Assembly: GCF_003342675.1 (NCBI RefSeq) | Contig: NZ_CP031148.1 | Location: 3,162,001-3,226,000, forward strand | Direction: 5' to 3' | Length of the DNA: 64,000 nt | Origin: Haloplanus rubicundus | GTDB lineage: Archaea; Halobacteriota; Halobacteria; Halobacteriales; Haloferacaceae | In this document: positions 625 to 59,344 of the stretch, piece after piece | How the letters are laid out: each line of letters begins with the position of its first letter | Numbering within the stretch: the first letter of the stretch is position 1 | Translations under genes and position numbers: made by a program | Notes under the pieces: generated by a model | Database searches by the model: none | Seen by the model: the letters and a program-made list of their open reading frames with translations, nothing else | What the model was told of the DNA's origin: nothing

Positions 625-737
625 CTGCGGGCGGAGCGGGACGATGAAGTTGAATATCGGACATGTGTGGGCGTATGCGTGGGAGTCCCTGACGCAAATT
701 CACCAGCTTTAAGAGATCAAAACCAAAGTTCGTGGCG

Positions 738-1280
738 ATGGTCTCAAAGCAGCCGAAGGAGTTCCTGTCGCGCCGGAAGTTCGCAGCCACGTTCAGCGGC
801 GTCGCCCTCGCCGGACTCGCGGGATGTTCCGGGGGGAACGGTGGCGGGGACGGCGACGATGGCGGTAGTGAACCGACGGCAACGGAGACGGCCACGGCGA
901 CCGACACGCCCGAACCGACGTCGACGCCGACGTCGACGCCGACGGAGGAAGCGGACGCCACGATTGCAGTGGGGCCGGGCGGCAGCCTCCAGTTCGAACC
1001 GGCGAATACGGCGATTTCGCAGGGCGATACGGTCGAGTTCGTCTTCGAGTCCGGCGGCCACAACGTGTCGGGGCATCCGGACGCACACTCGGACGTGTCG
1101 CTCCCCGAGGGCGCCGAACCGTTCGCGAGCTACGACATCTCCGGCGACGACATCAACCACCTCTCGCTCAACGAGGCCGGCACCACCTACCGACACACTT
1201 TCGAGACGACCGGTCAGTACACCTACGTCTGTGTCCCCCACGCCGCGTCAGGTATGATCGGTCAGCTGACTGTCCGATAA
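738..1280 (+). CDS. Halocyanin-like blue copper lipoprotein
   Basis: The protein has 180 residues. It begins with a Tat signal (SRRKFAATF) and a lipobox ending at Cys30, so it should be exported folded and lipid-anchored. A Gly/Thr/Pro/Glu-rich linker follows, then a plastocyanin-type cupredoxin domain. The copper ligands are visible: His in ESGGHN and the C-terminal Cys165, His168 and Met173 (CVPHAASGM). It would carry electrons on the outer face of the membrane. It sits just upstream of the PQQ dehydrogenase module and is a plausible electron acceptor for it. I chose ATG 738 over an in-frame GTG at 732, because 738 gives a normal n-region. Confidence 0.9.
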   Translation: MVSKQPKEFLSRRKFAATFSGVALAGLAGCSGGNGGGDGDDGGSEPTATETATATDTPEPTSTPTSTPTEEADATIAVGPGGSLQFEPANTAISQGDTVEFVFESGGHNVSGHPDAHSDVSLPEGAEPFASYDISGDDINHLSLNEAGTTYRHTFETTGQYTYVCVPHAASGMIGQLTVR

Positions 1281-1444: not shown

Positions 1445-2365
1445 ATGTCGCAATATGTAAACGACGGAATGCCCGAGATCGGCCAAGAGGATCGTCGACA
1501 GTTCCTCAAGGTCGTCGGGCTCACCGGCGCAGTGGCAGCAGGCAGCGAGTTCACCCTGAGCGATCTCAGGGGCGAAGTAGAAGGGGAGACGGCGGGGGAA
1601 CTCGCCGCGATGGGCGAATCGATCCGCTCGGACCTCGTCGGCACGCTCGACGCGGGTCTGCTCGGTAGCGAGCTCGCCTCCCTCGAAGGCCAGATCGAAC
1701 GCCTCCCCGAACTGCGGGCGATGGGCGTTCCGGCCGAGAACAGCACGGAGTATCAGGCGCTCGCCGAACCCGGCTGGGCGATCCACGAGCATCTCGTCGA
1801 AGTCGGCTTCTTCGAGAGCGTCGAGGAACACCTGCCGGAGTTCACGCCCGAGCATATCGGGGCGACGGCACGCGAGTTCATCAACACGGCGGCGCTCGCG
1901 TCCGCGCTCGCCGAACTCGGGTACAGCGAGGAAGAGCTGACGTCGACGGTCGTCAACGTCGTCAACAACAAGGAACGCCTGGCCATGTGGGTGCCGACGA
2001 AGAACATCCCGGCCGGCGTCGAAGGGTTCGATCCCGCAAACATCGCCCCGCTCCACCAGCGAGCGTCGGCCGGTGTGCTGCTGTGGACGGACTACCTCGA
2101 CACGTACCTCTGGCAGAACGAGGTACTCCTCACGGACACCATCCTCGACAACAACTACGGCGACCTCAAGCAGATGTACGCCGGCCTGCACCTGCTCGCG
2201 AACGCGGCCGAAGACCTCGCGGGTTCGCAGGAACTCAGCGACGCGCAGCTCACGGCTGCGCTGTCCGCCGGCGCGGCGATGATGATCGTCGGACAGGAAG
2301 ACCTGACGAACGACGTGATGCGCATCACGGACGAAATGCGCGCCCCACGCACGGGAGGTGCGTAA
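1445..2365 (+). CDS. Unknown Tat-signal-bearing partner of the PQQ dehydrogenase
   Basis: I do not recognise the family. The 306-residue protein starts with a hydrophilic stretch, then DRRQFLK and a short hydrophobic run at about residues 17-35, which fits a Tat signal that may stay uncleaved. The rest is predicted mostly helical, with no Cys motif or cofactor site visible. It ends 3 bp before the PQQ dehydrogenase start, so the two are surely co-transcribed. The dehydrogenase has no signal of its own, so I infer that this protein acts as its export carrier and small subunit. The start at ATG 1445 was chosen over an upstream in-frame TTG because it lies at a normal distance below the TATA-like box. 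Confidence 0.75.
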   Translation: MSQYVNDGMPEIGQEDRRQFLKVVGLTGAVAAGSEFTLSDLRGEVEGETAGELAAMGESIRSDLVGTLDAGLLGSELASLEGQIERLPELRAMGVPAENSTEYQALAEPGWAIHEHLVEVGFFESVEEHLPEFTPEHIGATAREFINTAALASALAELGYSEEELTSTVVNVVNNKERLAMWVPTKNIPAGVEGFDPANIAPLHQRASAGVLLWTDYLDTYLWQNEVLLTDTILDNNYGDLKQMYAGLHLLANAAEDLAGSQELSDAQLTAALSAGAAMMIVGQEDLTNDVMRITDEMRAPRTGGA

Positions 2366-2368
2366 CGC

Positions 2369-4093
2369 ATGGCTAGCATTCACCAACACGACGCGGCGGT
2401 AGAGGCGGCACAGAAGATCGAGATGGTGGAGGTCGAGGACGGCTATACGCTGACCAACCTCCCCGACGAATCGGTCACTCAGCAGTTCGACATCGACCAG
2501 ATTCCGGAGATGGACGTCACCCAGGAGATGCGGGAGGCCTCCGCGAAGGAGGACCCGACCTCTTGGCTGATGTACGGTGGCGGCTATCAGCAGCAGCGGC
2601 ACACCTCCGCCGACGTCATCACGAAGGACAACGTCGAGGACCTCGAACTCGAGTATCTGGTGCAGAGCGGCGTCGCCTCCAGCATGGAAGGCGTCCCGAT
2701 CGTCGTGCCCGGCGACCCGCCGGTCATGTACCAGACGAACGGGCCGAACCACGCGAAGGCGATCAACGCCCGCACCGGTGAGACCCTCTGGAGCTACACG
2801 TACGCGAACCCGCAGGGACTGCTTCTCTGCTGTGACGCGAACAACCGTGGCTTCGCCGTTCACGGCGACAAGGTCTACATGACCACGCTCGACTCTGGTG
2901 TCGTGGCGCTCAACCGCTACACCGGCGAAGAGGAGTGGTACACCTCGACCGGCGACCACGAGATCGGTTACTCCGCGACGTGGGCGCCCATCGTCCACGA
3001 GGGCAAGGTCATCACCGGCTCCGCCGGTGGCGAGTACGGCGTCAGCGGCTTCGTCGCCGCCCTCAACCCCGAGGACGGCTCCGAGATCTGGCGCACGAAC
3101 ACCACGCCCGCCGAGGAGTGGGCAGGAGACTCCCACGAACACGGTGCCGGTACCGTGTGGATGACGCCGACGCTCGACCCCGAGAGCGGCATGATCCACG
3201 CCCCGGTCGGCAACCCCGGTCCGGACTTCGACGGTACGGTCCGTCCGGGTCCGAACCGCTACACCATCGGGACGCTGACTCTCAGCGCCGACGACGGCTC
3301 CATCCAGTGGCACTACGGCGAGTCGCCCCACGACGTCTGGGACTACGACTCCTCCGCGACCAAGATCCGTGTCAACGACATGGACATGGGCGACGAGACG
3401 CGGGACGTCGTGATCAGCCCCGGCAAGACCGCCTGGGCGTACACGATGGACGCCAACAACGGCCGTCTGCTCGAGCGCTCCCAAGAGACGACCCAGCACA
3501 TCAACATGTGGAAGATGGTCCCGCACGTCGACGAGGACCGTCGGGTCGCCTTCGTCCCCGGTGCGCACGGTGGCAACGACTGGCAGCCCCCGTCCTACAA
3601 CCCCGAGACGGGCCTGGTCTACTTCAACCAGAACAACTCGCCGCACGAGATCTTCTGGGAAGAAGCGACCTACGAGGCCGGCCAGACCTACTGGGGCGGC
3701 GGCCTGAACGACTGGCCGGACGTCACCGAGCCGCAGGGCTGGAACGGCAACCTCAGCGCCATCGTCGCCGTCGATCCGGTCTCCGGTGAGCGCGTCTGGC
3801 GTGACTGGATCTCCTCGGACACCACCAGCGACTACCTCTGGGGCGGTTCGATCACGACCGCGAGCGGGATCACCTTCACCGGCCTCCAGACCGGCAACAT
3901 CGTCGCCTACGACGGCGAGACCGGTGACCGGCTCTGGCAGTTCCAGCTCGGTGCACCGATCTGCTCGTCGCTCTCCAGCTGGTACGACCCCGGCGAGGGC
4001 AAGCAGTACGTCGCGGTCCAGGTCGGCGGCTCCGGCTGGCTCCACGGCGGTCGCCGTGGCTCCACCGTCGCCGTCTTCGGCCTGAGCGAGTAA
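2369..4093 (+). CDS. PQQ-dependent alcohol dehydrogenase with lanthanide-type active site (XoxF/PedH-like)
   Basis: The 574-residue protein is a type I quinoprotein: an eight-bladed propeller with repeated W-docking motifs and no cytochrome c domain. The vicinal disulfide Cys154-Cys155 (LLCCDANNRG) stacks on PQQ in this family. Expected metal ligands are Glu222 (GGEYGVSG), Asn282 (VGNPGP) and catalytic Asp325 (HDVWDYD). Asp327, two residues after the catalytic Asp, is the extra ligand of lanthanide-dependent enzymes; calcium enzymes usually have Ala, Ser or Thr there. It would oxidise a primary alcohol and pass electrons to a cupredoxin. It has no signal peptide. The substrate is not predictable; methanol is only one option. 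Confidence 0.88.
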   Translation: MASIHQHDAAVEAAQKIEMVEVEDGYTLTNLPDESVTQQFDIDQIPEMDVTQEMREASAKEDPTSWLMYGGGYQQQRHTSADVITKDNVEDLELEYLVQSGVASSMEGVPIVVPGDPPVMYQTNGPNHAKAINARTGETLWSYTYANPQGLLLCCDANNRGFAVHGDKVYMTTLDSGVVALNRYTGEEEWYTSTGDHEIGYSATWAPIVHEGKVITGSAGGEYGVSGFVAALNPEDGSEIWRTNTTPAEEWAGDSHEHGAGTVWMTPTLDPESGMIHAPVGNPGPDFDGTVRPGPNRYTIGTLTLSADDGSIQWHYGESPHDVWDYDSSATKIRVNDMDMGDETRDVVISPGKTAWAYTMDANNGRLLERSQETTQHINMWKMVPHVDEDRRVAFVPGAHGGNDWQPPSYNPETGLVYFNQNNSPHEIFWEEATYEAGQTYWGGGLNDWPDVTEPQGWNGNLSAIVAVDPVSGERVWRDWISSDTTSDYLWGGSITTASGITFTGLQTGNIVAYDGETGDRLWQFQLGAPICSSLSSWYDPGEGKQYVAVQVGGSGWLHGGRRGSTVAVFGLSE

Positions 4094-4218: not shown

Positions 4219-4881
<663 letters not shown>

Positions 4882-4930
4882 CGCCCCCGGCTCACAGCTT
4901 TTTTCGAGATGTACTCCCAACGGAGTAGCG

Positions 4931-5698
4931 ATGCGTAACGCACTCACCGCCGTCGGAGACCGACTCCGGCGTCCGGAGTATACGGGCGAGAACCGCTGTC
5001 TCCCGTGTACCGTCGTGAACGTCTGTCTCACGCTCGTGCTCGCCGCCGTCGCCACCGTCGCGCTCACGCCGCTGGGCGGCGTGGTCGTCCTCGTCGGTGG
5101 TCTGGGCGCCGTCTACTTCCGTGGCTATCTCGTGCCCGGCACGCCGACGCTCACGGTACGCTACTTTCCGCCGTGGCTGCTCGAACTGTTCGGGAAGGAC
5201 GTCGAACTCCGCGAGACACTCCAGCCGATCGAGGGAGTCGCCGTCCGGGCGACCCCCGAGGGGGGCCGCCTCGTCGACTCCTTCGCGGCGGCGTGGGACG
5301 ACCGGATCGAATCGATGCGGGCCACGGGCGCGAGCGAGGCGGACGTGGCGACGCTGCTCGGCGTCGACGAGGTATCGAACGTCGGCGAAGCGGCCTACGT
5401 CGTCGACAGCGGCCTCAGGCAGTGGCTCTCGCCGTCGGCGCTCCTAGCGGACGCCGCGGCGGCCGCGGTGCTTGCGGACCGGGGCGACGACGCGTGGACG
5501 TCGCTCGACCCGGACGAACGGGTCGCGACGCTGCGTGACCTACGGAAACACCTCGACTACTGTCCGCTCTGTGGCGGGGCACTCGACGCCGAAGAGACGG
5601 AAACCGTCGAGACCTGTTGTACCGAATCCGAGCGGGTGTTGATGGCGACGTGTCTCGATTGTGACGTTCGCCTGATCGAGGACCTGAACGACCGGTAA
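4931..5698 (+). CDS. Conserved haloarchaeal membrane protein with C-terminal zinc-ribbon-like domain
   Basis: The function is unknown. The 255-residue protein has two adjacent hydrophobic segments at about residues 28-70, separated by a short polar turn, so it should sit in the membrane with most of the chain in the cytoplasm. The C-terminal 55 residues contain CPLC, a Cys-Cys pair and CLDC, which looks like a zinc-binding ribbon. ATG 4931 was chosen because it follows a normal intergenic gap; the open frame extends further up through the previous gene. The gene ends 15 bp before dyad repeat A. Confidence 0.7.
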   Translation: MRNALTAVGDRLRRPEYTGENRCLPCTVVNVCLTLVLAAVATVALTPLGGVVVLVGGLGAVYFRGYLVPGTPTLTVRYFPPWLLELFGKDVELRETLQPIEGVAVRATPEGGRLVDSFAAAWDDRIESMRATGASEADVATLLGVDEVSNVGEAAYVVDSGLRQWLSPSALLADAAAAAVLADRGDDAWTSLDPDERVATLRDLRKHLDYCPLCGGALDAEETETVETCCTESERVLMATCLDCDVRLIEDLNDR

Positions 5699-5792: not shown

Positions 5793-7925
5793 TCAGTCGT
5801 CGGCGGGGGCGTCCGCGTCGCCTGCGTCCGCCTCGACCGAGACCTCGATTTCGGCGGCAGCGGCCTTGTACTCCGGAATCTTCGCGCGTTCGTCGAGTAC
5901 GTCGTTGGTGAGACGGTTGCCCGCGGACTCGGCGAAGTGCGGCGTCGTCCACACCGTCCCCTCTTTGATATCGTCGGTGACGCGCGCCTCGACCTCGATT
6001 TCGCCACGGCGGGATTTGAGCGTCACGTAATCGCCGTCCTCGATGCCGTACGCCTCGGCGTCGTTCGGGTGGACGTCGACGAAGTTCTCCGGTTCGACGC
6101 GGGTGAGCGTCGCGGACCGGCGGCTCATCGTCCCCGTGTTGTAGTGTTCGATGATCCGACCCGTCGTGAGGATGAGCGGGTACTCCTCGTCGGGTGTCTC
6201 CTTGGGCGGCTGGTGGCGGACGCCTTCGATCTGTCCGCGCCCGCTCTCGGTGGTGAAGCCGTCCTCGTAGAGGAAGGGGTCACCCTCGTCGCCGGGTTCG
6301 TAGCAGGGCCAGTGGACGCCCTCCTCGCCGAGGACGTCGTAGGTCATGCCGTGGAAGATGGGCGCGACCTGTCGGAGTTCCTCGAACACTTCCTCGGGAC
6401 CCTCGAAGTCGAAGGAGCCGTCACCGAACAGGCGGTTGCCCACGTCACAGAGGATTTCGAGGTCGTCTTTCGTGTTCGGGTGGACCTTGTCGACGCCGCG
6501 CATCCGCTGGGTGCGGCGGTCGGTGTTGACGACGGTACCGTCGCGTTCCGCCCACGAGGTGGCGGGGAGGATCACGTCGGCGTACTCCGCCGTCTCGGTC
6601 TGGTAGATGTCCTGCACCACCATGAAGTCGAGTTCCTCGAGTCGCTTCTCGACCTGATTGGTGTCGGGTTCGCTCATCACGGGGTTCTCGCCCATGATGT
6701 AGAGACCGTGGATCGTCTCGCCGATTTCGTGGGACATCTCGACGTTCGTCAGGCCGGGTTCGGACGGAATCTCGAAGTCCCAGACCTCCTCGACGTCCGC
6801 GCGGACTTCGGGGTCGGAGACGTCGCGGTAGCCGGGGAGGACGTTCGGCATCGCGCCCACGTCGGAGGCGCCCTGTACGTTGTTCTGGCCGCGAAGCGGG
6901 TTGACGCCCGTGCCGGGGCGGCCGAGGTTGCCCGTGATCAGCGCGAGGTTGATCTCGTTTTGGACGTTGTCCACGCCGCAGGTGTGCTGGGACATCCCCA
7001 TGCCGGTGAAGATGGCGGCGTTGTTCGCCTTGGCGTACTTCTCGGCGGCGAGTTCGATGTCCTCGAGCGGGACGCCGGCCTCCTCGGCGGCGGCTTCCTT
7101 GTCGAAGTCCTCGAGGGTCTCCTCGAGGTGGTCGAATCCTTCGGTGCGCTCCGCGACGAACTCCTCGTCGACCCAGTCGTTCTCCAGCACCGTCTTGATC
7201 ACGACGTTCAGGAGTGGGATGTCGGTCCCCGGCTCCAGCTGGAGATGCATGTGGCGGTCGGTCTCGGTGATTTCGAACGACTGCGTCGTCTTGTTGGCGT
7301 GGGGATCGACCTGGATGACGGTCGCTCCCTCCAAGACGGCCTGGCGGAAGTACTGGCTGTTGGCGATGGGGTGCTGTTCCCCGGGGTTGGCGCCCTGAAT
7401 CCAGAAGACGTCGGCCGCCTCCTCCAGGTCCTCCATGCTGTTGGTCATCGCACCCTCGCCGAGGCTGTTTTTGAGCGCGTACACCGTCGAGGAGTGACAC
7501 ATCCGCGTGCAGGTGTCGACGCTGTTGGTGCCGTAGCGTCGCGCGAGCTTCTGGATGAGGTAGTTCTCCTCGTTCATGGCCTTCGAACAGCCGTAAAAGC
7601 CCATGCCCTGGGCACTGTGCTCTTCACGGATGCGCTCCATGTTCTCGACGATCAGGTCGTACGCCTCGTCCCACGACGCCTCACGGAGTTCGCCGTCGTC
7701 GTCGCGGATCAGCGGGTCGGTCAACCGGTCCTCGTGGTTGACCGACTGCGTGGCCGCGCCACCCTTGATGCAGATGCTCCCCTCGTTGACCGGCGCGTCG
7801 CCCCACGGACGAAAGTTGACTTCCCCGTCGTCGTCCTGCGTGATCTGGATGCCGCACCCGACCCCGCAGTACGGACAGATCGTTTTCGTCGGCCCGTCAG
7901 ATTCACCGCTGGATTCGGATGACAT
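5793..7925 (-). CDS. fdhA: Formate dehydrogenase catalytic subunit, Mo/W-bis-MGD, Cys type
   Basis: The protein has 710 residues, the size of the single-subunit FdhF family. The N-terminal 4Fe-4S ligands are Cys17, Cys20, Cys24 and Cys52, followed by Lys54, which relays electrons. Cys143-His144 (TRMCHSS) matches the Sec140-His141 metal-ligand pair of E. coli FdhH, with Cys in place of Sec. MGD-binding segments follow (GANPGEQHP, LRGQNNVQGASD, TTGRIIEHYNTGT). There is no Tat signal, so the enzyme is cytoplasmic. No FdhB, FdhD or membrane subunit lies next to it, so the electron partner is unknown. A close relative such as an assimilatory nitrate reductase is less likely given Cys-His. Confidence 0.88.
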   Translation of the reverse strand: MSSESSGESDGPTKTICPYCGVGCGIQITQDDDGEVNFRPWGDAPVNEGSICIKGGAATQSVNHEDRLTDPLIRDDDGELREASWDEAYDLIVENMERIREEHSAQGMGFYGCSKAMNEENYLIQKLARRYGTNSVDTCTRMCHSSTVYALKNSLGEGAMTNSMEDLEEAADVFWIQGANPGEQHPIANSQYFRQAVLEGATVIQVDPHANKTTQSFEITETDRHMHLQLEPGTDIPLLNVVIKTVLENDWVDEEFVAERTEGFDHLEETLEDFDKEAAAEEAGVPLEDIELAAEKYAKANNAAIFTGMGMSQHTCGVDNVQNEINLALITGNLGRPGTGVNPLRGQNNVQGASDVGAMPNVLPGYRDVSDPEVRADVEEVWDFEIPSEPGLTNVEMSHEIGETIHGLYIMGENPVMSEPDTNQVEKRLEELDFMVVQDIYQTETAEYADVILPATSWAERDGTVVNTDRRTQRMRGVDKVHPNTKDDLEILCDVGNRLFGDGSFDFEGPEEVFEELRQVAPIFHGMTYDVLGEEGVHWPCYEPGDEGDPFLYEDGFTTESGRGQIEGVRHQPPKETPDEEYPLILTTGRIIEHYNTGTMSRRSATLTRVEPENFVDVHPNDAEAYGIEDGDYVTLKSRRGEIEVEARVTDDIKEGTVWTTPHFAESAGNRLTNDVLDERAKIPEYKAAAAEIEVSVEADAGDADAPADD

Positions 7926-8679: not shown

Positions 8680-8749
8680 AACTGTTTGCACGGCCGGTCG
8701 GACGCCGAACTGCGATCGGCCGTGCACTGACTTTCAATCGCTACTATAG
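8664..8749. repeat. Dyad repeat, copy G (18-bp perfect outer arms)
   Basis: The outer arm CTATAGTAGCGATTGAAA at 8664-8681 is matched exactly by its reverse complement at 8732-8749. Inner arms GCACGGCCG and CGGCCGTGC enclose a loop of about 20 nt. Both convergent genes end inside it, and each uses its arm to encode the same Tyr-Ser-Ser-Asp tail. Confidence 0.92.
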
Positions 8750-9714
8750 CGCCCGATCCGCTCGGCGTAGTTCGCGATGGTCGGATCGCTGTCGTCGACG
8801 TACTCGTTCGTCCACGCCTCGGCGGGGTCGACCGGGGATTCGAGGAGGTCCGTCTCGGCGAGCATCTCGCCCAAGTTCTCCCAGCGCCGTTCGTCGAAGT
8901 GCCCCCATCCCGCCTCGCGGACGAACTCCGTGAACTGGAGGTCCTCCGCTGAGGCGAGGAACTTCATGTGTTCGACCTCGCGGTTGTGTTCGAGCTGGGC
9001 GTTGCGGGCGATGAGCGCGTCGACGGCGCGGTCCGGGTCGTTCGTCGCCAGCTCCCAGCCGCGAGCCGTCGCCCGCAGGAACGAGCGGACCGTCTCGGGG
9101 TTCTCGGCGGCGAACTCGGGGTTGGTGACGACCGTCATCCCGTAGACGTCCAGATAGTTGCCGATCAGGAGTTCGTCGGCGACGCGGTCGTACTCGCGTT
9201 CGAGCTCCTTTCCGTTCGTGACGACGCCGACCGCGGCGTCGATGTCGCCGTCGAGCAACTGGTGTTCGACGCGATGGTGGGTGTGTTTCTGCACGTCGTC
9301 GACCTCGACGTCGTCACGGATGCCGCGGTCCTCCAGGAGCTGCAGGGTGAGGATGCGGGTCTTGGTCGCCGAGGGGCCGACCCGCCGGCCGCGAAGCTGT
9401 TCGGGCTCGGTGAACGGTTCGCCGAAGGTGTCCCGGAGCGTGTAGATGGTCGCCGGTGTCTTCTGACTGACCGCGGCGACGGCGAGGGGTTCGAGCCCCT
9501 GACTCCGGACCGAGAGCACCGCGCTCCCGCCCGAGAGGCCGAGGTCGCTCCGCCCCTTGGCGGTCTGTTCGGCGGCGAAGGGGGAGCCGTGGCCCTCGAC
9601 GAACTCCACGTCGAGGCCCTCGTCGGCGTAGAATCCCTCTTCGCGCGCGAGGAAGTACGGCGCCTGGAAGCCGTTCGGTTCCCAGTTCAACTGGAAGGTG
9701 ACGGTTTCGGTCAT
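8734..9714 (-). CDS. NMT1/THI5-family substrate-binding-like protein without signal peptide
   Basis: The 326-residue protein has the periplasmic-binding fold of the nitrate/sulfonate/THI5 group: LNWEPNGFQAPYF at residues 8-20, FYADEGLDVEFV, the GRRVGPSATKTR hinge region and GDIDAAVGVVTNG. It begins directly with the mature-type sequence, with no Tat, Sec or lipobox segment, so it should be cytoplasmic. No permease or ATPase gene is near. Its start overlaps the stop of the next upstream gene by 4 bp. It may be an enzyme on this fold (compare THI5 and MqnA/MqnD) or a ligand-binding accessory protein. The motif is shared with the regulator at the window start. Confidence 0.8.
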   Translation of the reverse strand: MTETVTFQLNWEPNGFQAPYFLAREEGFYADEGLDVEFVEGHGSPFAAEQTAKGRSDLGLSGGSAVLSVRSQGLEPLAVAAVSQKTPATIYTLRDTFGEPFTEPEQLRGRRVGPSATKTRILTLQLLEDRGIRDDVEVDDVQKHTHHRVEHQLLDGDIDAAVGVVTNGKELEREYDRVADELLIGNYLDVYGMTVVTNPEFAAENPETVRSFLRATARGWELATNDPDRAVDALIARNAQLEHNREVEHMKFLASAEDLQFTEFVREAGWGHFDERRWENLGEMLAETDLLESPVDPAEAWTNEYVDDSDPTIANYAERIGRYSSD

Positions 9715-10703
9715 GGGTCTACCTCGAAGGTGCCGTCGGGTATCTCCTCGACGCCGAGGGCCTCGGCGCCGGCCACGGACTTCAGGTGATCGAACAGCCG
9801 GTACATGCCGTCGACCTGCTCGTCGTCCCAGTCGCGGACGACCATCTCCCGCCAGCCGTCACGGACCGCGCGCATCACGTCCGGATCGTCGTAGCTCATG
9901 AGTTTCTCGCTGATCTCCTCCCAGATCTCGTCGTCCTCGACGAGTTTGTCCACCGCGTCGCGGTAGGCGTCGGCGAACGCCCGCACCGTCTCGCGTTGCT
10001 CGTCGAGATACTCCCCGCTCGTGAGGAACGCGGCGAGGGGGAGTTTGTCGTCCGTCTCGGAGAGCCGCTGGACCAACTCCGAGACGGGCATGACGTTCTC
10101 GAACGGCCCCGTCTCCGTGATCTCGGGGATGATCTGCCAGAACTGGAAGCCGGCGTCGACCTCCCCCTCCTCGATCATGCGGGTGAGTTCGACCTTCGAG
10201 CCGGCCTCGACGGGCGTCGCCGTCTCGTCGGGGTCGAAGTCGTGGAACTCACGGCAGGCCGCCCGCGTCAGAATCCAGTTCTTGTCGAGGCGGCGGACGA
10301 CCCCGATGCGCTTGCCCGAGAGGTCCTCCAACCCCTCGATGTCGGAGTCCTCGGGGGCGACGAGGCCGCCGACGGTCCGCCCGTACGGGTGGAAGGCGAC
10401 GATGTCGGCCCCCTCGGCACGTTCGCGGGCGATGGAGATGTAGTCGATGTCGATGAGGTCGGCGTGACCCTCCTGCAGCTGAGCCTCCACCGTCTCGATA
10501 CCGTCTTCGAGGGCGTCGGAGACGAGCTGGACGTCGAGGTGGAAGCCGTGGTCGTGGTCGAAGCCGAAGCGCTTGATCGTGTAGAGCAGGTAGCGCGGAC
10601 TCCCGTTGTGCTCGAAGCGGGCGCGCATGGTCGGCAGGTCGCCCGGGTCGTCGTGGTACTCGTCGAGGGCCGCCTGCTGGGCGTCGACGTGGTCCCGACT
10701 CAT
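9711..10703 (-). CDS. SBP-fold protein, paralogue 2 of the 330-residue pair, no signal peptide
   Basis: The 330-residue protein is clearly related along its whole length to the product of 10853-11845 and needs no gaps to align. Shared blocks include RDHVDAQQAA, MRARFEHNGSPRYLLY, PYGRTVGGLVAP and RRLDKNWILTRAACRE. GEVDAGFQFWQI is typical of SBP-like folds. It lacks any export signal. It follows a short remnant ORF (10700-10795) and a copy of the 12.7-kb promoter, so it appears to be the surviving half of a duplicated two-gene unit. The stop overlaps the ATG of 8734-9714. No function is known; enzymes such as 4,5-dihydroxyphthalate decarboxylase share this fold. Confidence 0.75.
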   Translation of the reverse strand: MSRDHVDAQQAALDEYHDDPGDLPTMRARFEHNGSPRYLLYTIKRFGFDHDHGFHLDVQLVSDALEDGIETVEAQLQEGHADLIDIDYISIARERAEGADIVAFHPYGRTVGGLVAPEDSDIEGLEDLSGKRIGVVRRLDKNWILTRAACREFHDFDPDETATPVEAGSKVELTRMIEEGEVDAGFQFWQIIPEITETGPFENVMPVSELVQRLSETDDKLPLAAFLTSGEYLDEQRETVRAFADAYRDAVDKLVEDDEIWEEISEKLMSYDDPDVMRAVRDGWREMVVRDWDDEQVDGMYRLFDHLKSVAGAEALGVEEIPDGTFEVDP

Positions 10704-10795
10704 CGGTCCCCGCGGGCGGGTGTGGTCGTCCGTCTGGTCGACTCGGTGGCGCCGCGAGCGGTGGCAGGCGCCGCGATACTCTCGTCGGTCGGCAT
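10700..10795 (-). pseudogene. 31-codon remnant of a duplicated SBP-like gene
   Basis: The reading frame starts MPTDESI, which lines up with MSATETI at the start of the 11846-12742 gene. The ATG sits 26 nt below the same ATAAAA-type TATA box and the same GGGTACGACT segment in both places. After seven codons the similarity stops and the frame runs into the next ATG by an ATGA overlap. I read it as the front of a deleted gene copy. It may still be translated from a leaderless message and couple to the gene below. Confidence 0.55.
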
Positions 10796-10826
10796 ACCCG
10801 CAGGGTACGACTGGACCGTGATAAAA

Positions 10827-10838
10827 TTTCCTTGGAAA
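10827..10838. promoter_or_regulatory. Operator-like palindrome TTTCC-TT-GGAAA beside TATA box
   Basis: The palindrome directly abuts the ATAAAA TATA box (10821-10826, read on the minus strand as TTTTAT). The same arrangement is found at 12774-12786, and both are followed downstream by GGGTACGACT. This suggests one regulator acting on both units. Confidence 0.55.
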
Positions 10839-10852
10839 CGTTCAATAGCGAA

Positions 10853-11845
10853 TCACGGATTCGGCTGGAGGGTGCCCTCGGGAATCCCGTCGACGCCGAG
10901 CGCGTCCGCGCCGGCGACGGATTTCAGGTGGTCGAACAGCCGGTACATCCCGTCTACGCTCCCCGCGTCCCAATCGCGGACGACCATGTCGCGCCAGCCG
11001 TCCCGGATCGAACGCGTCACGTCCGGGTCGTCGGTTCGCATCAGGCGGTCGCCGACCTCGATCCAGAGGTCGTCGTCCGCGAGGAGACGGTCGACGCCGT
11101 CCCGGGCGGCCGCGGCGAAGCCCCGAACCGCCTCGGGGTGGTCGTCGAGATACGACTCCCCGGTGAGAAAGACCGCGATGGGGAGCTTGCGGTCGGTTCC
11201 GGCGAGTCGCTGGACCAGATCGGCGACCGGGAACACTTCGACATAGGGGCCGGTGCGCGTGAGTTCGGGCACGAGCGGCCAGAACTGGAAGCCGGCGTCG
11301 ACCTCGCCGTCACGGATCAGCCGCGTGAGGTCGTCCCGGGAGTCGGCCTCGACGAGCGTCACCGTCTCCGCGGGGTCGAAGTCGTGGTACTCGCGGCAGG
11401 CCGCCCGCGTCAGGATCCAGTTCTTGTCCAGCCGCCGGGTCACCCCGATCCGGTGACCCGACAGGTCGGCGAGCCCCCCGATGTCGGTATCGTCCGGTGC
11501 GACGAGGCCGCCCACGGTCCGCCCGTACGGGTGGACCGCGACGACGTTCGCGCCCGCAGCGCGCTCCCGGGCGACGGAGAGGTAGTCGGTGTCGACGAGG
11601 TCGGTGTCGCCCGCGTCCAGCCGGTGGCGGATGGTCTCCATGCCGCTCTCCAGTTCGTCGGTGACGAGATCGACGTCGAGGTGGAAGCCGTGATGGTGGT
11701 CGAAGCCGAACCGCTTGATCGCGTAGAGAAGATACCGGGGGCTGCCGTTGTGTTCGAACCGCGCGCGCATCACCGGTCGGTCGCCGGGGTCACCGCGGTG
11801 CGCGTTGAACGCCGCTTGCTGGGCGTCGACGTGATCCCGATTCAT
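10853..11845 (-). CDS. SBP-fold protein, paralogue 1 of the 330-residue pair, no signal peptide
   Basis: The 330-residue protein is the close paralogue of 9711-10703. Features seen include a His-rich segment FGFDHHHGFHLD near residue 50, GRTVGGLVAP, RLDKNWILTRAACRE and GEVDAGFQFW. There is no signal peptide or membrane segment. Its ATG directly abuts the stop codon of the 11846-12742 gene, so the two are translated from one message. Whether it binds, carries or converts a small molecule is not known. The two paralogues differ most in the last third, which may reflect different partners or ligands. Confidence 0.75.
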   Translation of the reverse strand: MNRDHVDAQQAAFNAHRGDPGDRPVMRARFEHNGSPRYLLYAIKRFGFDHHHGFHLDVDLVTDELESGMETIRHRLDAGDTDLVDTDYLSVARERAAGANVVAVHPYGRTVGGLVAPDDTDIGGLADLSGHRIGVTRRLDKNWILTRAACREYHDFDPAETVTLVEADSRDDLTRLIRDGEVDAGFQFWPLVPELTRTGPYVEVFPVADLVQRLAGTDRKLPIAVFLTGESYLDDHPEAVRGFAAAARDGVDRLLADDDLWIEVGDRLMRTDDPDVTRSIRDGWRDMVVRDWDAGSVDGMYRLFDHLKSVAGADALGVDGIPEGTLQPNP

Positions 11846-12742
11846 TCACCGCAGCGGCGAGACGATGGCGTCGATATCGGCGTCGTCGTCGATCAACTGC
11901 CGCCGTTTCATCCAGTCGAGGTGGTAGTCGAGGTCCTCGCGGTCCGCGAGCTCGGGCACCTCGTACTCGGGCACCTTGATGGCCTCGCGGACGGCGTCGA
12001 CGTCGACCGACTCGAAGAGGTCCGGCGCGACTTCCTCGTCCTTCCAGAGCATATCGAGGTACTGGTCACGATAGGCGTTGGGGTCGGCGTTGATTTCTTC
12101 GACCGCGCGGCGGTACGCGCGCATGAACGCGTCGAGCGTCTCGCCCTCCAGCGCTTCGGCGCCGACGACGCCCATGTGGTTCTCGAACTCCAGCACCTTC
12201 TCGAAGCCGAGGTGTTCGGCGAGGGTGATGTGCGGGTCCAGAAGCGTGACGGCCTCGACCTCGCCGTCGCGGAGCGCGCGCAGGCGGTCGGTCGGCATCC
12301 CGTGCCCCTCGATGACGACCTCGTCCTCATTCATGTGCTCTTCGAGCGCCCGAATGGCCGTGTACTCCTGTCCCGTGCGTCGGTTGACGCCGACGGGAAC
12401 GTTCGCCAGATCGGAGGGCTCCTCGATCCCCGAATCGGGGCGGACGAACACCGCGTACGGCTGGTCCGCGAAGGTCCCCTTGGCGACGATGCGTCCGTCG
12501 TCGAACTCCCACGTCCGCTTCAGGCTCTCCCACTTGCAGATGGGGTAGAGGTCGACGTCGTTGTCGCCGGTCAGCGTCTCCTCGGCCGGGATGTACTTGT
12601 TCGTCACGCAGGTGCGGTCCCGCTCGATCAAGTCGACGTCCAACCCCTCGTCGGCGAAGTAGCCACGCTCCGCGGCGACGCGCTGGGGGAGCATGAACGA
12701 GAACGGCAGGTGGAACACTCTGATCGTCTCGGTTGCTGACAT
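11846..12742 (-). CDS. SBP-fold protein (PhtD/THI5-like), first gene of the operon, no signal peptide
   Basis: The 298-residue protein opens with IRVFHLPFSFMLPQRVAAERGYFADEG, a typical first strand and helix of the SBP fold, starting at residue 7. It continues with RPDSGIEEPSDLANVPVGVN and RDGEVEAVTLLDPH. It lacks the Tat or Sec export signal seen in true haloarchaeal transport SBPs. It heads a minus-strand operon under a promoter with a TATA box at 12768-12773 and an operator-like palindrome at 12774-12786. The ATG is 26 nt below the TATA box, so the message is probably leaderless. The distant likeness to 4,5-dihydroxyphthalate decarboxylase-type enzymes is suggestive only. Confidence 0.75.
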   Translation of the reverse strand: MSATETIRVFHLPFSFMLPQRVAAERGYFADEGLDVDLIERDRTCVTNKYIPAEETLTGDNDVDLYPICKWESLKRTWEFDDGRIVAKGTFADQPYAVFVRPDSGIEEPSDLANVPVGVNRRTGQEYTAIRALEEHMNEDEVVIEGHGMPTDRLRALRDGEVEAVTLLDPHITLAEHLGFEKVLEFENHMGVVGAEALEGETLDAFMRAYRRAVEEINADPNAYRDQYLDMLWKDEEVAPDLFESVDVDAVREAIKVPEYEVPELADREDLDYHLDWMKRRQLIDDDADIDAIVSPLR

Positions 12743-12786: not shown

Positions 12787-12830
12787 CTTTATTACTAACA
12801 CGCAGTATCGGAGACGTGGGGACAGATCGA

Positions 12831-13172
12831 ATGAGGCGGATCAACGACGAGCGAGCGGACGACGTGGAGGTCGCAGACGGCGTCTATCTCGCCGACCTCA
12901 CGGCCGGCGAGCGGGCGTCGATGAAACACTGGCGGGTCGAACCGGGAGCCACGCTCCCCGTCCACCGGCACGACAACGAGCAGATCGGTTACATGATTCG
13001 GGGGACTCTCACGGCGATCACCGAAGACGAGGAGGTCACGCTCCGTCCGGGCGACTCGTACGTGTTCGCGTCCGGCGAACTCCACGGTGCCGAAAATCGC
13101 GGAGACGAACCCGCGGTCGGCATCGGCGTCCTCTCGCCGCCACGTTCCGATCCGGACTGGAAGCAGTCGTAG
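12831..13172 (+). CDS. Small single-domain cupin
   Basis: The 113-residue protein is one cupin barrel. The two metal-binding motifs are clear: PVHRHDNEQIGYMIRG (His, His, Glu) and, 35 residues later, a final His in SGELHGAEN. It could bind a metal and a small acid, or act as a simple isomerase or decarboxylase. It is divergent from the SBP-like operon and shares its control region, so it probably belongs to the same pathway. ATG 12831 was chosen over GTG 12816; both are in frame. Confidence 0.8.
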   Translation: MRRINDERADDVEVADGVYLADLTAGERASMKHWRVEPGATLPVHRHDNEQIGYMIRGTLTAITEDEEVTLRPGDSYVFASGELHGAENRGDEPAVGIGVLSPPRSDPDWKQS

Positions 13173-58357: not shown

Positions 58358-59344
58358 TTAGTCGTTGCGGCGCTCGGCGTCGACGAGCGCACCACGGTTG
58401 CGCCCCTCGGCGACGAGCACCCGCCCGTCGACGCCGGCCGCGTCGAGGGCCGCCCGGCCTGCCTCCCGCGCCGCCCCCGACCGCTCGGCGTCGGTCACGC
58501 CGTACGCCGCCGGCCCCCACGACGACTGCCCGGCCCCGTAGACGGCTGGCGAGTCGTCGAGCGCCGCGACGAGTTCGCCCGCCGGCGGCCGGTAGACGCC
58601 GCCCTGTTCGTCGGCGTACCACGTCCCGTTGAGCCGGCCGACTTCGGCGACGGCGGCGCCGAAGCGCTCGGCCGAGCCCTCCGTGATCGCCGGCAGAACC
58701 CGGCGGGCGATCACCCCAGCCAGCCGGTCGCTCGGCGTCGGCGGTGCCGACTCCACCACGGAGCGCATGCTCCGATCCTCGTCGTCGCCGCTCGGCCCCG
58801 CGGGGGCGTCGGGGACGACGACGAGGAACCGCCAGTCGTCGGGGATCGGATGGCGGGCCGCCACCGGCGGCACCGACCACTCGCCGACCGCGGGGCGGGA
58901 CGTGGTGAACCGCGCCGTCGGGTGGCCGGCGTCGAGGACGAACCCGCCGTTCCCGAAGGTGGCGACGCCGACGCCCGAGCGCCCGCCCCGCCCCAACTCC
59001 GGCGCCAACGCGCGGGTGTCGACCGATTCGTCGTGTGCCCGCGCGACGGCGACGAGCGTCGCGAGCGCGAACTGCGTCCCGCTCCCGAGACCGACGTGTC
59101 TGGGAAACTCGCCCTCGACGGCCAGGTCGGCGCCGGCGACGTCGAGCAGGTCGACGGATCGAACCGCGTACTCGCGGACCGTCGGGTGCGCACAAGACAC
59201 CGCGTCGGCCGGCGTCGCCGTGACGCGGATCGACGGGCGGTCGAGGCCGACGCCCAGGCTCCCGTAGAGTCGTTCGCGCGCGAGGCTCAGGTTGCAGAAG
59301 CCGAAGTGGAGCCGCGCGTACGCCGTGACGCTGGCGCGAGTCAT
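58358..59344 (-). CDS. Beta-ribofuranosylaminobenzene 5'-phosphate synthase (GHMP family)
   Basis: The 328-residue protein starts ASVTAYARLHFGFCNL and has the GHMP motif HVGLGSGTQFALA. Later come GRSGVGVATFGNGGFVLDAG and QSSWGPAAYG. The family joins PRPP and p-aminobenzoate in the first step of methanopterin synthesis. It ends 24 bp before the KaiC-like gene and starts 8 bp after the cupin gene. Haloarchaea are not known for methanopterin, so the product may be a folate-like C1 carrier. Confidence 0.82.
   Translation of the reverse strand: MTRASVTAYARLHFGFCNLSLARERLYGSLGVGLDRPSIRVTATPADAVSCAHPTVREYAVRSVDLLDVAGADLAVEGEFPRHVGLGSGTQFALATLVAVARAHDESVDTRALAPELGRGGRSGVGVATFGNGGFVLDAGHPTARFTTSRPAVGEWSVPPVAARHPIPDDWRFLVVVPDAPAGPSGDDEDRSMRSVVESAPPTPSDRLAGVIARRVLPAITEGSAERFGAAVAEVGRLNGTWYADEQGGVYRPPAGELVAALDDSPAVYGAGQSSWGPAAYGVTDAERSGAAREAGRAALDAAGVDGRVLVAEGRNRGALVDAERRND

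Follow-up and report, generated by a model that had tools for sequence, protein, structure and literature searches.

PedH/ExaF of Pseudomonas putida (6zcv) is a lanthanide enzyme with a Glu, an Asn and two Asp residues as metal ligands, a pair of adjacent Cys residues and a stacking Trp, and it works with the cytochrome c PedF. XoxF (6dam, 4mae), also a lanthanide enzyme, has the motif WDYD together with the metal ligands and the Cys pair. In the calcium methanol dehydrogenase MxaFI (1lrw), the PQQ propeller is accompanied by a second subunit, the small peptide MxaI. Archaeal PQQ dehydrogenases with the DYD motif are already known, from marine heterotrophic Thaumarchaeota: four carry DYD, all lack the Cys pair, most have signal peptides, the genomes encode a PQQ synthase, and blue copper was proposed by the authors as a possible acceptor (PMC7300363). 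For export, Burkholderia cepacia offers a precedent: the signal-less catalytic subunit of its FAD glucose dehydrogenase leaves the cell with a hitchhiker subunit (PMC6719666).

The window analysed here (the whole stretch of 64,000 nt) comes from the 3.77-Mb genome of Haloplanus rubicundus. It contains the following pair of genes:

1445 to 2365, plus strand: partner subunit, 306 aa, all-helical, with a twin-arginine-like N-terminus DRRQFLKVVGLTGAVAAG; proposed Tat escort
2369 to 4093, plus strand: PQQ-type alcohol dehydrogenase (ADH), the catalytic subunit; 574 aa, eight-bladed propeller, no signal peptide

This ADH shares the four ligands, the Cys pair and the stacking Trp with PedH/ExaF, but it belongs to a separate clade, has Lys353 in place of Arg, lacks a signal peptide and has a helical partner; moreover, its system has putative blue-copper acceptors in place of PedF and no pqq genes. 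It resembles XoxF in WDYD, the metal ligands and the Cys pair, but falls outside the XoxF clade, and no XoxG/XoxJ-type neighbours were seen. A second subunit is a feature in common with MxaFI, which differs in having Ala for Asp327 and in that MxaI is small and unrelated. The Thaumarchaeota DYD enzymes are likewise archaeal PQQ dehydrogenases for which a blue-copper acceptor is proposed, but the haloarchaeal ADH differs from them in its Cys pair (present in clades A–D, defined below) and in having neither a signal peptide nor pqq genes. The B. cepacia enzyme, with its signal-less catalytic subunit and small Tat-signal escort, serves as an analogy only: it is of the FAD/GMC type with an Fe-S cluster, and its escort has no detectable homology to the partner. 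A search of the open-access literature turned up no haloarchaeal alcohol dehydrogenase of the lanthanide type, and neither the partner nor rare-earth use in haloarchaea appears to have been described before. The preliminary description of this DNA did not mention the partner gene, the absence of a signal peptide from the ADH, the blue-copper neighbours or Lys353.

The catalytic subunit and its active site

A PQQ alcohol dehydrogenase had been proposed for positions 2369–4093, and the ORF, the Pfam match and the fold agree in supporting this assignment. The ORF is intact, with an ATG at 2369, a stop codon ending at 4093 and no internal stop. The protein matches PF01011 with E = 1.2e-49 and 170 bits (cut-off 26.7); against TIGR03075 (methanol/ethanol PQQ dehydrogenase), it scores 378 bits, under the cut-off of 480, in a match spanning nearly the full length, and against TIGR04528 (acido-empty-quinoprotein group A) it scores 278 bits, under the cut-off of 650. 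Among proteins of solved structure, the closest in sequence is PedH 6zcv (3.5e-76), followed by XoxF 6dam (7e-66). PedH 6zcv is also the best fold match in the PDB for the joint model of the partner and the ADH (Foldseek E = 4.4e-41), followed by XoxF 4mae/6dam and MDH, and by this comparison the ADH is an eight-bladed propeller of the MDH type. The residues of interest are as follows:

2828 to 2833, plus strand: vicinal Cys154-Cys155, in register with the CC of MDH/PedH; present in 58 of 58 sequences of clades A–D, lost in E and F
3032 to 3034, plus strand: metal ligand Glu222, aligned with the Glu of XoxF, PedH and MxaF
3212 to 3214, plus strand: metal ligand Asn282, aligned with the Asn of XoxF, PedH and MxaF; the same in all 77 haloarchaeal homologues
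3338 to 3349, plus strand: WDYD, residues 324–327, with the catalytic Asp325 and the lanthanide-type Asp327; matches XoxF/PedH in the alignment; unchanged in all 77 haloarchaeal homologues

The preliminary description had read these residues as the site of a lanthanide enzyme, with Ala, Ser or Thr expected at the position of Asp327 in calcium enzymes, and the alignment bears this out in part. WDYD lies over WDFD of PedH (6zcv) and WDYD of XoxF (6dam), so that Asp327 falls at the metal, at the position of their extra ligand. The same column holds Ala in MxaF (1lrw, WDYA) and Thr in the quinohaem ADH (1yiq, WDYT), and PedE, a calcium enzyme, has Ser where PedH has Asp (PMC5487730). Glu222, Asn282, Asp325, Cys154, Cys155, Arg160 and Trp264 are all in register with the characterised enzymes, and the PQQ pocket is complete: Cys154-Cys155, Arg160 (the Arg109 position), the stacking Trp264 and the catalytic Asp325. 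One residue of the PQQ site counts against a PQQ enzyme of the lanthanide type. Residue 353, at the position of MDH Arg331, is Lys in all 77 homologues, while it is Arg in XoxF and PedH; in the alignment, this Lys is common to the quinohaem ADHs, which lack the extra Asp.

Homologues of the ADH were found at E ≤ 1e-30 in 69 of 391 haloarchaeal genomes. Their clades carry letters of our own and are given here with the identity to the window ADH: A (Haloplanus, with relatives at 88–93%), B (Natrialbaceae, about 61–64%), C (about 55–61%), D (about 46–52%), E (about 38–44%) and F (about 34–38%). Asp327 is one of 40 positions that are invariant across the 77 distinct homologues, which range from 34 to 100% identity. 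Of 12 active-site positions chosen beforehand, 10 do not vary within clades A–D (58 sequences), as compared with 104 of 574 positions overall (hypergeometric P = 1.3e-6); judged from the aligned sequences, the conservation of the active site in these clades is beyond chance. Clades E and F keep Asp327 but have lost the Cys pair and further residues of the pocket; in clade F, Asp or Tyr mostly takes the place of the metal ligand Glu222. Asp327 alone is thus not diagnostic of lanthanide binding. With Asp327 in place, a rare-earth ion is the likely metal at the site formed by Glu222, Asn282, Asp325 and Asp327, and lanthanide dependence of the ADH is plausible.

A maximum-likelihood tree that also included bacterial XoxF, PedH-like, MxaF and quinohaem sequences places the haloarchaeal ADHs (46 rows) in one group with support of 100/99 that stands apart from all of them, inside neither the XoxF nor the ExaF/PedH clade. 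Since the tree has a midpoint root, few bacterial sequences and some long branches, only the separateness of the group is taken from it. Two clade E ADHs (L067, L092) carry a very acidic low-complexity insert of about 80–150 residues, rich in E, D, G and T, between the last propeller blades.

The partner subunit and the proposed route of export

In every locus examined, the ADH gene is directly preceded by a partner gene for about 305 aa, which runs in the same direction and is separated from it by −4 to +79 nt. The partner profile (52 members) matches 70 of the 391 haloarchaeal genomes, namely, all 69 that have the ADH and one more; the single match among the 322 ADH-less genomes is a fragment of 56 residues, a remnant. 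A sample of 295 genomes from the phylum gave five partner matches, every one of them in the window's own order. Our main result, as read from these occurrences, is a two-subunit PQQ dehydrogenase that is specific to haloarchaea and has an obligate partner to which no role had been assigned before.

Little is revealed by comparison of the partner with known proteins. Profile comparison yielded no Pfam family, and no relative was found by sequence in the PDB. The AF2 model is all-helical (pLDDT 90.9, pTM 0.90) and has no clear PDB fold, the best Z of 5.9 being within the noise for helical proteins. A match to PF12318 (FAD-SLDH) in 1 of the 52 members, with E = 0.08, was treated as chance. The plasmid copies of the partner are annotated as hypothetical. 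As for the gene start, the TTG at 1427 (giving 312 aa) was dropped in favour of the ATG at 1445, which is the start of most Haloplanus homologues. Two partner matches (G191:C1:1155575-1156486 and G274:C1:2219834-2220748) contain one in-frame stop each, TGA and TAA, respectively; these may be decaying copies, sequencing errors or the result of reading past the gene end.

The partner and ADH genes of the window are in one frame and 3 nt apart, so that they can be read as one chain with the stop as Gly. This read-through chain was folded with an alignment that contained 41 more read-through rows as well as 34 rows of single proteins. Its pTM of 0.82, an indirect measure of packing in a tethered chain, exceeds the value of about 0.6 expected without packing, a figure that is our own estimate; on this estimate, the model supports a physical association of the partner and the ADH.

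No ADH homologue has a hydrophobic N-terminus or a signal, and the partners of Haloplanus, of locus L011, of clade D, of most of clade E and of clade F carry RRxFLK followed by a hydrophobic stretch. The Tat profile PF10518 is matched by 19 of the 52 partners at E ≤ 1. The window partner scores 14.5 bits against it (cut-off 22.7), and its Tat-like N-terminal segment is predicted as a folded helix (block means of 78–89 pLDDT), so its twin-arginine start is to be taken as suggestive only. A Tat signal common to all partners had been considered; in the survey, almost no partner from clades B and C, to which the Natrialbaceae belong among others, had one, although the ADHs there keep the full active site, and the claim was narrowed.

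Export is best supported by clade F. Three of its ADHs (L074, L079, L090), which have no N-terminal signal, end in a Thr-rich stretch, a PGF motif, a hydrophobic segment and a basic tail; the PGF-CTERM anchor is over the Pfam cut-off in L074, whereas in L079 and L090 it either scores under the curated HMM cut-offs or was recognised by eye. Their partners start with RREFLK or RRTFLK. PGF-CTERM anchors are processed outside the membrane, and a PGF-CTERM-like anchor on a signal-less ADH thus means that the protein must cross the membrane. Taken together, the sequences suggest that the partner probably carries the ADH out of the cell. Where the partner has lost the Tat-like signal, as in clades B and C, a cytoplasmic enzyme is possible.

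Proposed electron acceptor, PQQ supply and competing explanations

Two genes for blue-copper-type proteins flank the pair in the window:

732 to 1280, plus strand: halocyanin with the type-1 copper motif CVPHAASGM; PF00127 E = 1.6e-16, twin-arginine-like SRRKF, lipobox-like LAGC; proposed electron acceptor
4219 to 4881, plus strand: divergent cupredoxin with a PGF-CTERM anchor; TIGR04126 31.8 bits (cut-off 24.5), twin-arginine-like TRRKFL

All the wider Haloplanus loci have the halocyanin gene upstream of the pair, and a type-1 copper gene adjoins the pair in clades A and B, in most of E and in some members of D; a scan for the copper-ligand motif found none beside the clade C pairs. The cupredoxin of the window has no canonical axial Met and, by alignment, is homologous to a domain that is fused to the N-terminus of the ADH in L075 and L091. 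In these two loci, the domain is just under the Pfam cut-off, and the ligands His, Cys, His and Met are present. The extension begins 2 nt after the partner and has a cupredoxin domain, and the fusions are therefore considered real. Long ORFs joining the ADH to upstream sequence in five other loci (L010, L011, L057, L060, L076) were rejected as fusions, being over-extended open frames in GC-rich DNA. The fused homologues, like the anchored ones, belong to clade F, which lacks the Cys pair and mostly lacks Glu222. Fusion and adjacency point to blue copper as the putative acceptor.

A look for pqq genes, which the preliminary description had proposed, had a negative outcome: neither pqqC, pqqB nor pqqE was found over the cut-off in the window's own and related genomes. 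PqqC was searched for in 40 genomes, the window's own among them, and none gave a match, while the positive control (an Azospirillum plasmid) scored 359.6 bits. PqqB was not found over the cut-off in 12 haloarchaea (control, 406.7 bits). The matches to the PqqE profile, none of them over the cut-off, occurred also in E. coli and all controls and are of the general radical-SAM kind. With no known pqq synthesis genes, PQQ, if used, would be scavenged from outside. Just upstream of the window, and upstream of the halocyanin gene, there is an SsuABC/TauC-like ABC transporter with a Tat-lipobox binding protein (L133:5692-8436; G000:C2:3157692-3160436). A similar SsuABC-like transporter recurs in many ADH loci, and it could import PQQ or the substrate.

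From the residues, the pairing, the missing signal, the anchors and the fusion, all of which are read directly from the genes, we infer the metal, the cofactor, the export route and the acceptor as follows. Asp325 would be the catalytic base, and Glu222, Asn282, Asp325 and Asp327 would hold a metal that polarises PQQ; given Asp327, this metal would be a trivalent rare-earth ion. The ADH would fold in the cytoplasm together with the helical partner, whose twin-arginine N-terminus would take the folded complex through Tat in the manner of hitchhiker export. Outside, with PQQ taken up from there, electrons would pass from PQQH2 to the neighbouring halocyanin or cupredoxin and not to a cytochrome c. 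An exported two-subunit PQQ alcohol (or aldehyde) dehydrogenase of this kind, with a lanthanide-type site, carried by its partner and feeding blue copper, is the explanation that we consider, on balance, probable.

The metal and the cofactor might nevertheless be otherwise. Calcium, which is abundant in brine, could occupy the site of the same two-subunit PQQ enzyme, the extra Asp being inherited without dictating rare-earth use. This would be in line with the persistence of Asp327 in clades E and F despite the loss of the Cys pair and, in F, mostly of Glu222, and with Lys353, common to quinohaem ADHs that lack the extra Asp; in an unsystematic look, no known lanthanide-uptake gene was seen beside the locus. 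To our knowledge, every characterised Asp-bearing PQQ enzyme prefers lanthanides. With PedH, the closest solved relative, bearing Asp where the calcium enzyme PedE bears Ser (PMC5487730), we regard calcium as an unlikely occupant. A more radical possibility is an empty quinoprotein, i.e. a propeller that has given up PQQ binding for a different function and in which the partner plays a structural part. The lack of pqqC, pqqB and pqqE over the cut-off in the own and related genomes, the TIGR03075 score under the cut-off and the lost Cys pair and other pocket residues of clades E and F would all suit it. It seems quite improbable to us in view of the 10 of 12 PQQ-pocket and metal positions that are invariant in clades A–D and of the still lower score against TIGR04528 (278 bits vs. 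650). Moreover, exogenous PQQ is used by many bacteria.

The place of action and the role of the partner were weighed in the same way. If the partner's N-terminus were a structural helix and not a Tat signal, the dehydrogenase would be cytoplasmic, as might be thought from clades B and C, where neither subunit has a signal, from the folded prediction for the N-terminal segment and from the sub-cut-off Tat score of the window partner. PGF-CTERM-like anchors on signal-less ADHs, exported cupredoxins that adjoin or are fused to the ADH, a vicinal disulphide that is expected to form outside and the Tat matches of 19 partners speak against this, and we assign it a low probability. The partner might instead be a maturation factor, a PQQ- or metal-loading factor or a regulatory subunit: its perfect pairing with the ADH does not reveal a role, and its fold has no clear match. 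Because a Tat-like N-terminus is present on the partner in several branches and a signal is never found on the ADH, such a non-escort role is also thought unlikely.

The exported lanthanide-type dehydrogenase can be extended to a wider picture of rare-earth alcohol oxidation in Halobacteria by a system that differs in its build from all those described, comprising an ADH of its own clade, Tat export in the folded state on a haloarchaea-only helical subunit, scavenged PQQ and blue copper (sometimes fused), with loss of the signal in Natrialbaceae giving a cytoplasmic PQQ enzyme; as a whole, this picture is tentative and somewhat doubtful. If it is true, rare-earth metabolism reaches haloarchaea, and a family annotated as hypothetical gains a job, that of an obligate partner to a PQQ dehydrogenase. 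Three matters also become testable with this system: the export of a PQQ enzyme without its own signal, the use of PQQ by archaea without pqq genes, and the coupling of PQQ oxidation to blue copper instead of cytochrome c.

Other genes around the pair

Downstream of the cupredoxin, two further genes of recurrent occurrence are found:

4880 to 5698, plus strand: recurrent neighbour with NRCLPCT and a C-terminal Cys cluster; near the pair in several genera, no confident family
5793 to 7925, minus strand: formate dehydrogenase alpha subunit; TIGR01591 752 bits (cut-off 666); near the pair in Haloplanus, Natrinema and others

In several genera, the surroundings of the pair include, in varying order, the formate dehydrogenase alpha subunit, the NRCLPCT protein, a cupin and NMT1-like proteins, three or four in number, that lack signal peptides; a Halomarina plasmid is among these cases. 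This recurrence hints at a shared pathway, and the adjoining formate dehydrogenase hints weakly at C1 or short-chain alcohols as substrates. In Natrinema zhouii, a glutathione-independent formaldehyde-dehydrogenase-like gene (TIGR02819, 347 bits, under the cut-off) and a gene for a CobW-type metallochaperone GTPase lie downstream of the pair; these two genes are L049:10062-11225 and L049:11776-12888. A methanol-specific role was considered on account of the formate dehydrogenase and this formaldehyde-dehydrogenase-like gene, which give a hint only.

In the window, four tandem NMT1/SsuA-like proteins without signal peptides are encoded at 8734–12742 (minus strand), adjoined by the cupin at 12816–13172 (plus strand); a version with three NMT1-like genes is located near the ADH in Natrialba, Halostagnicola, Halomarina and others. 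By comparison with the PDB, one of the NMT1-like proteins resembles THI5 (HMP synthase) and another resembles 9b1u/9ooz, and they may be enzymes and not transport proteins. Farther along the window, there is a second PQQ-repeat propeller (PF13360; 45642–46853, minus strand), which, unlike the ADH, has its own twin-arginine-like signal (ITRREFVGAG). Finally, a beta-RFAP synthase family protein is encoded at 58358–59344 (minus strand): with 158 bits against TIGR00144 (cut-off 113.5), it is of the methanopterin-synthesis type, here in a haloarchaeon.
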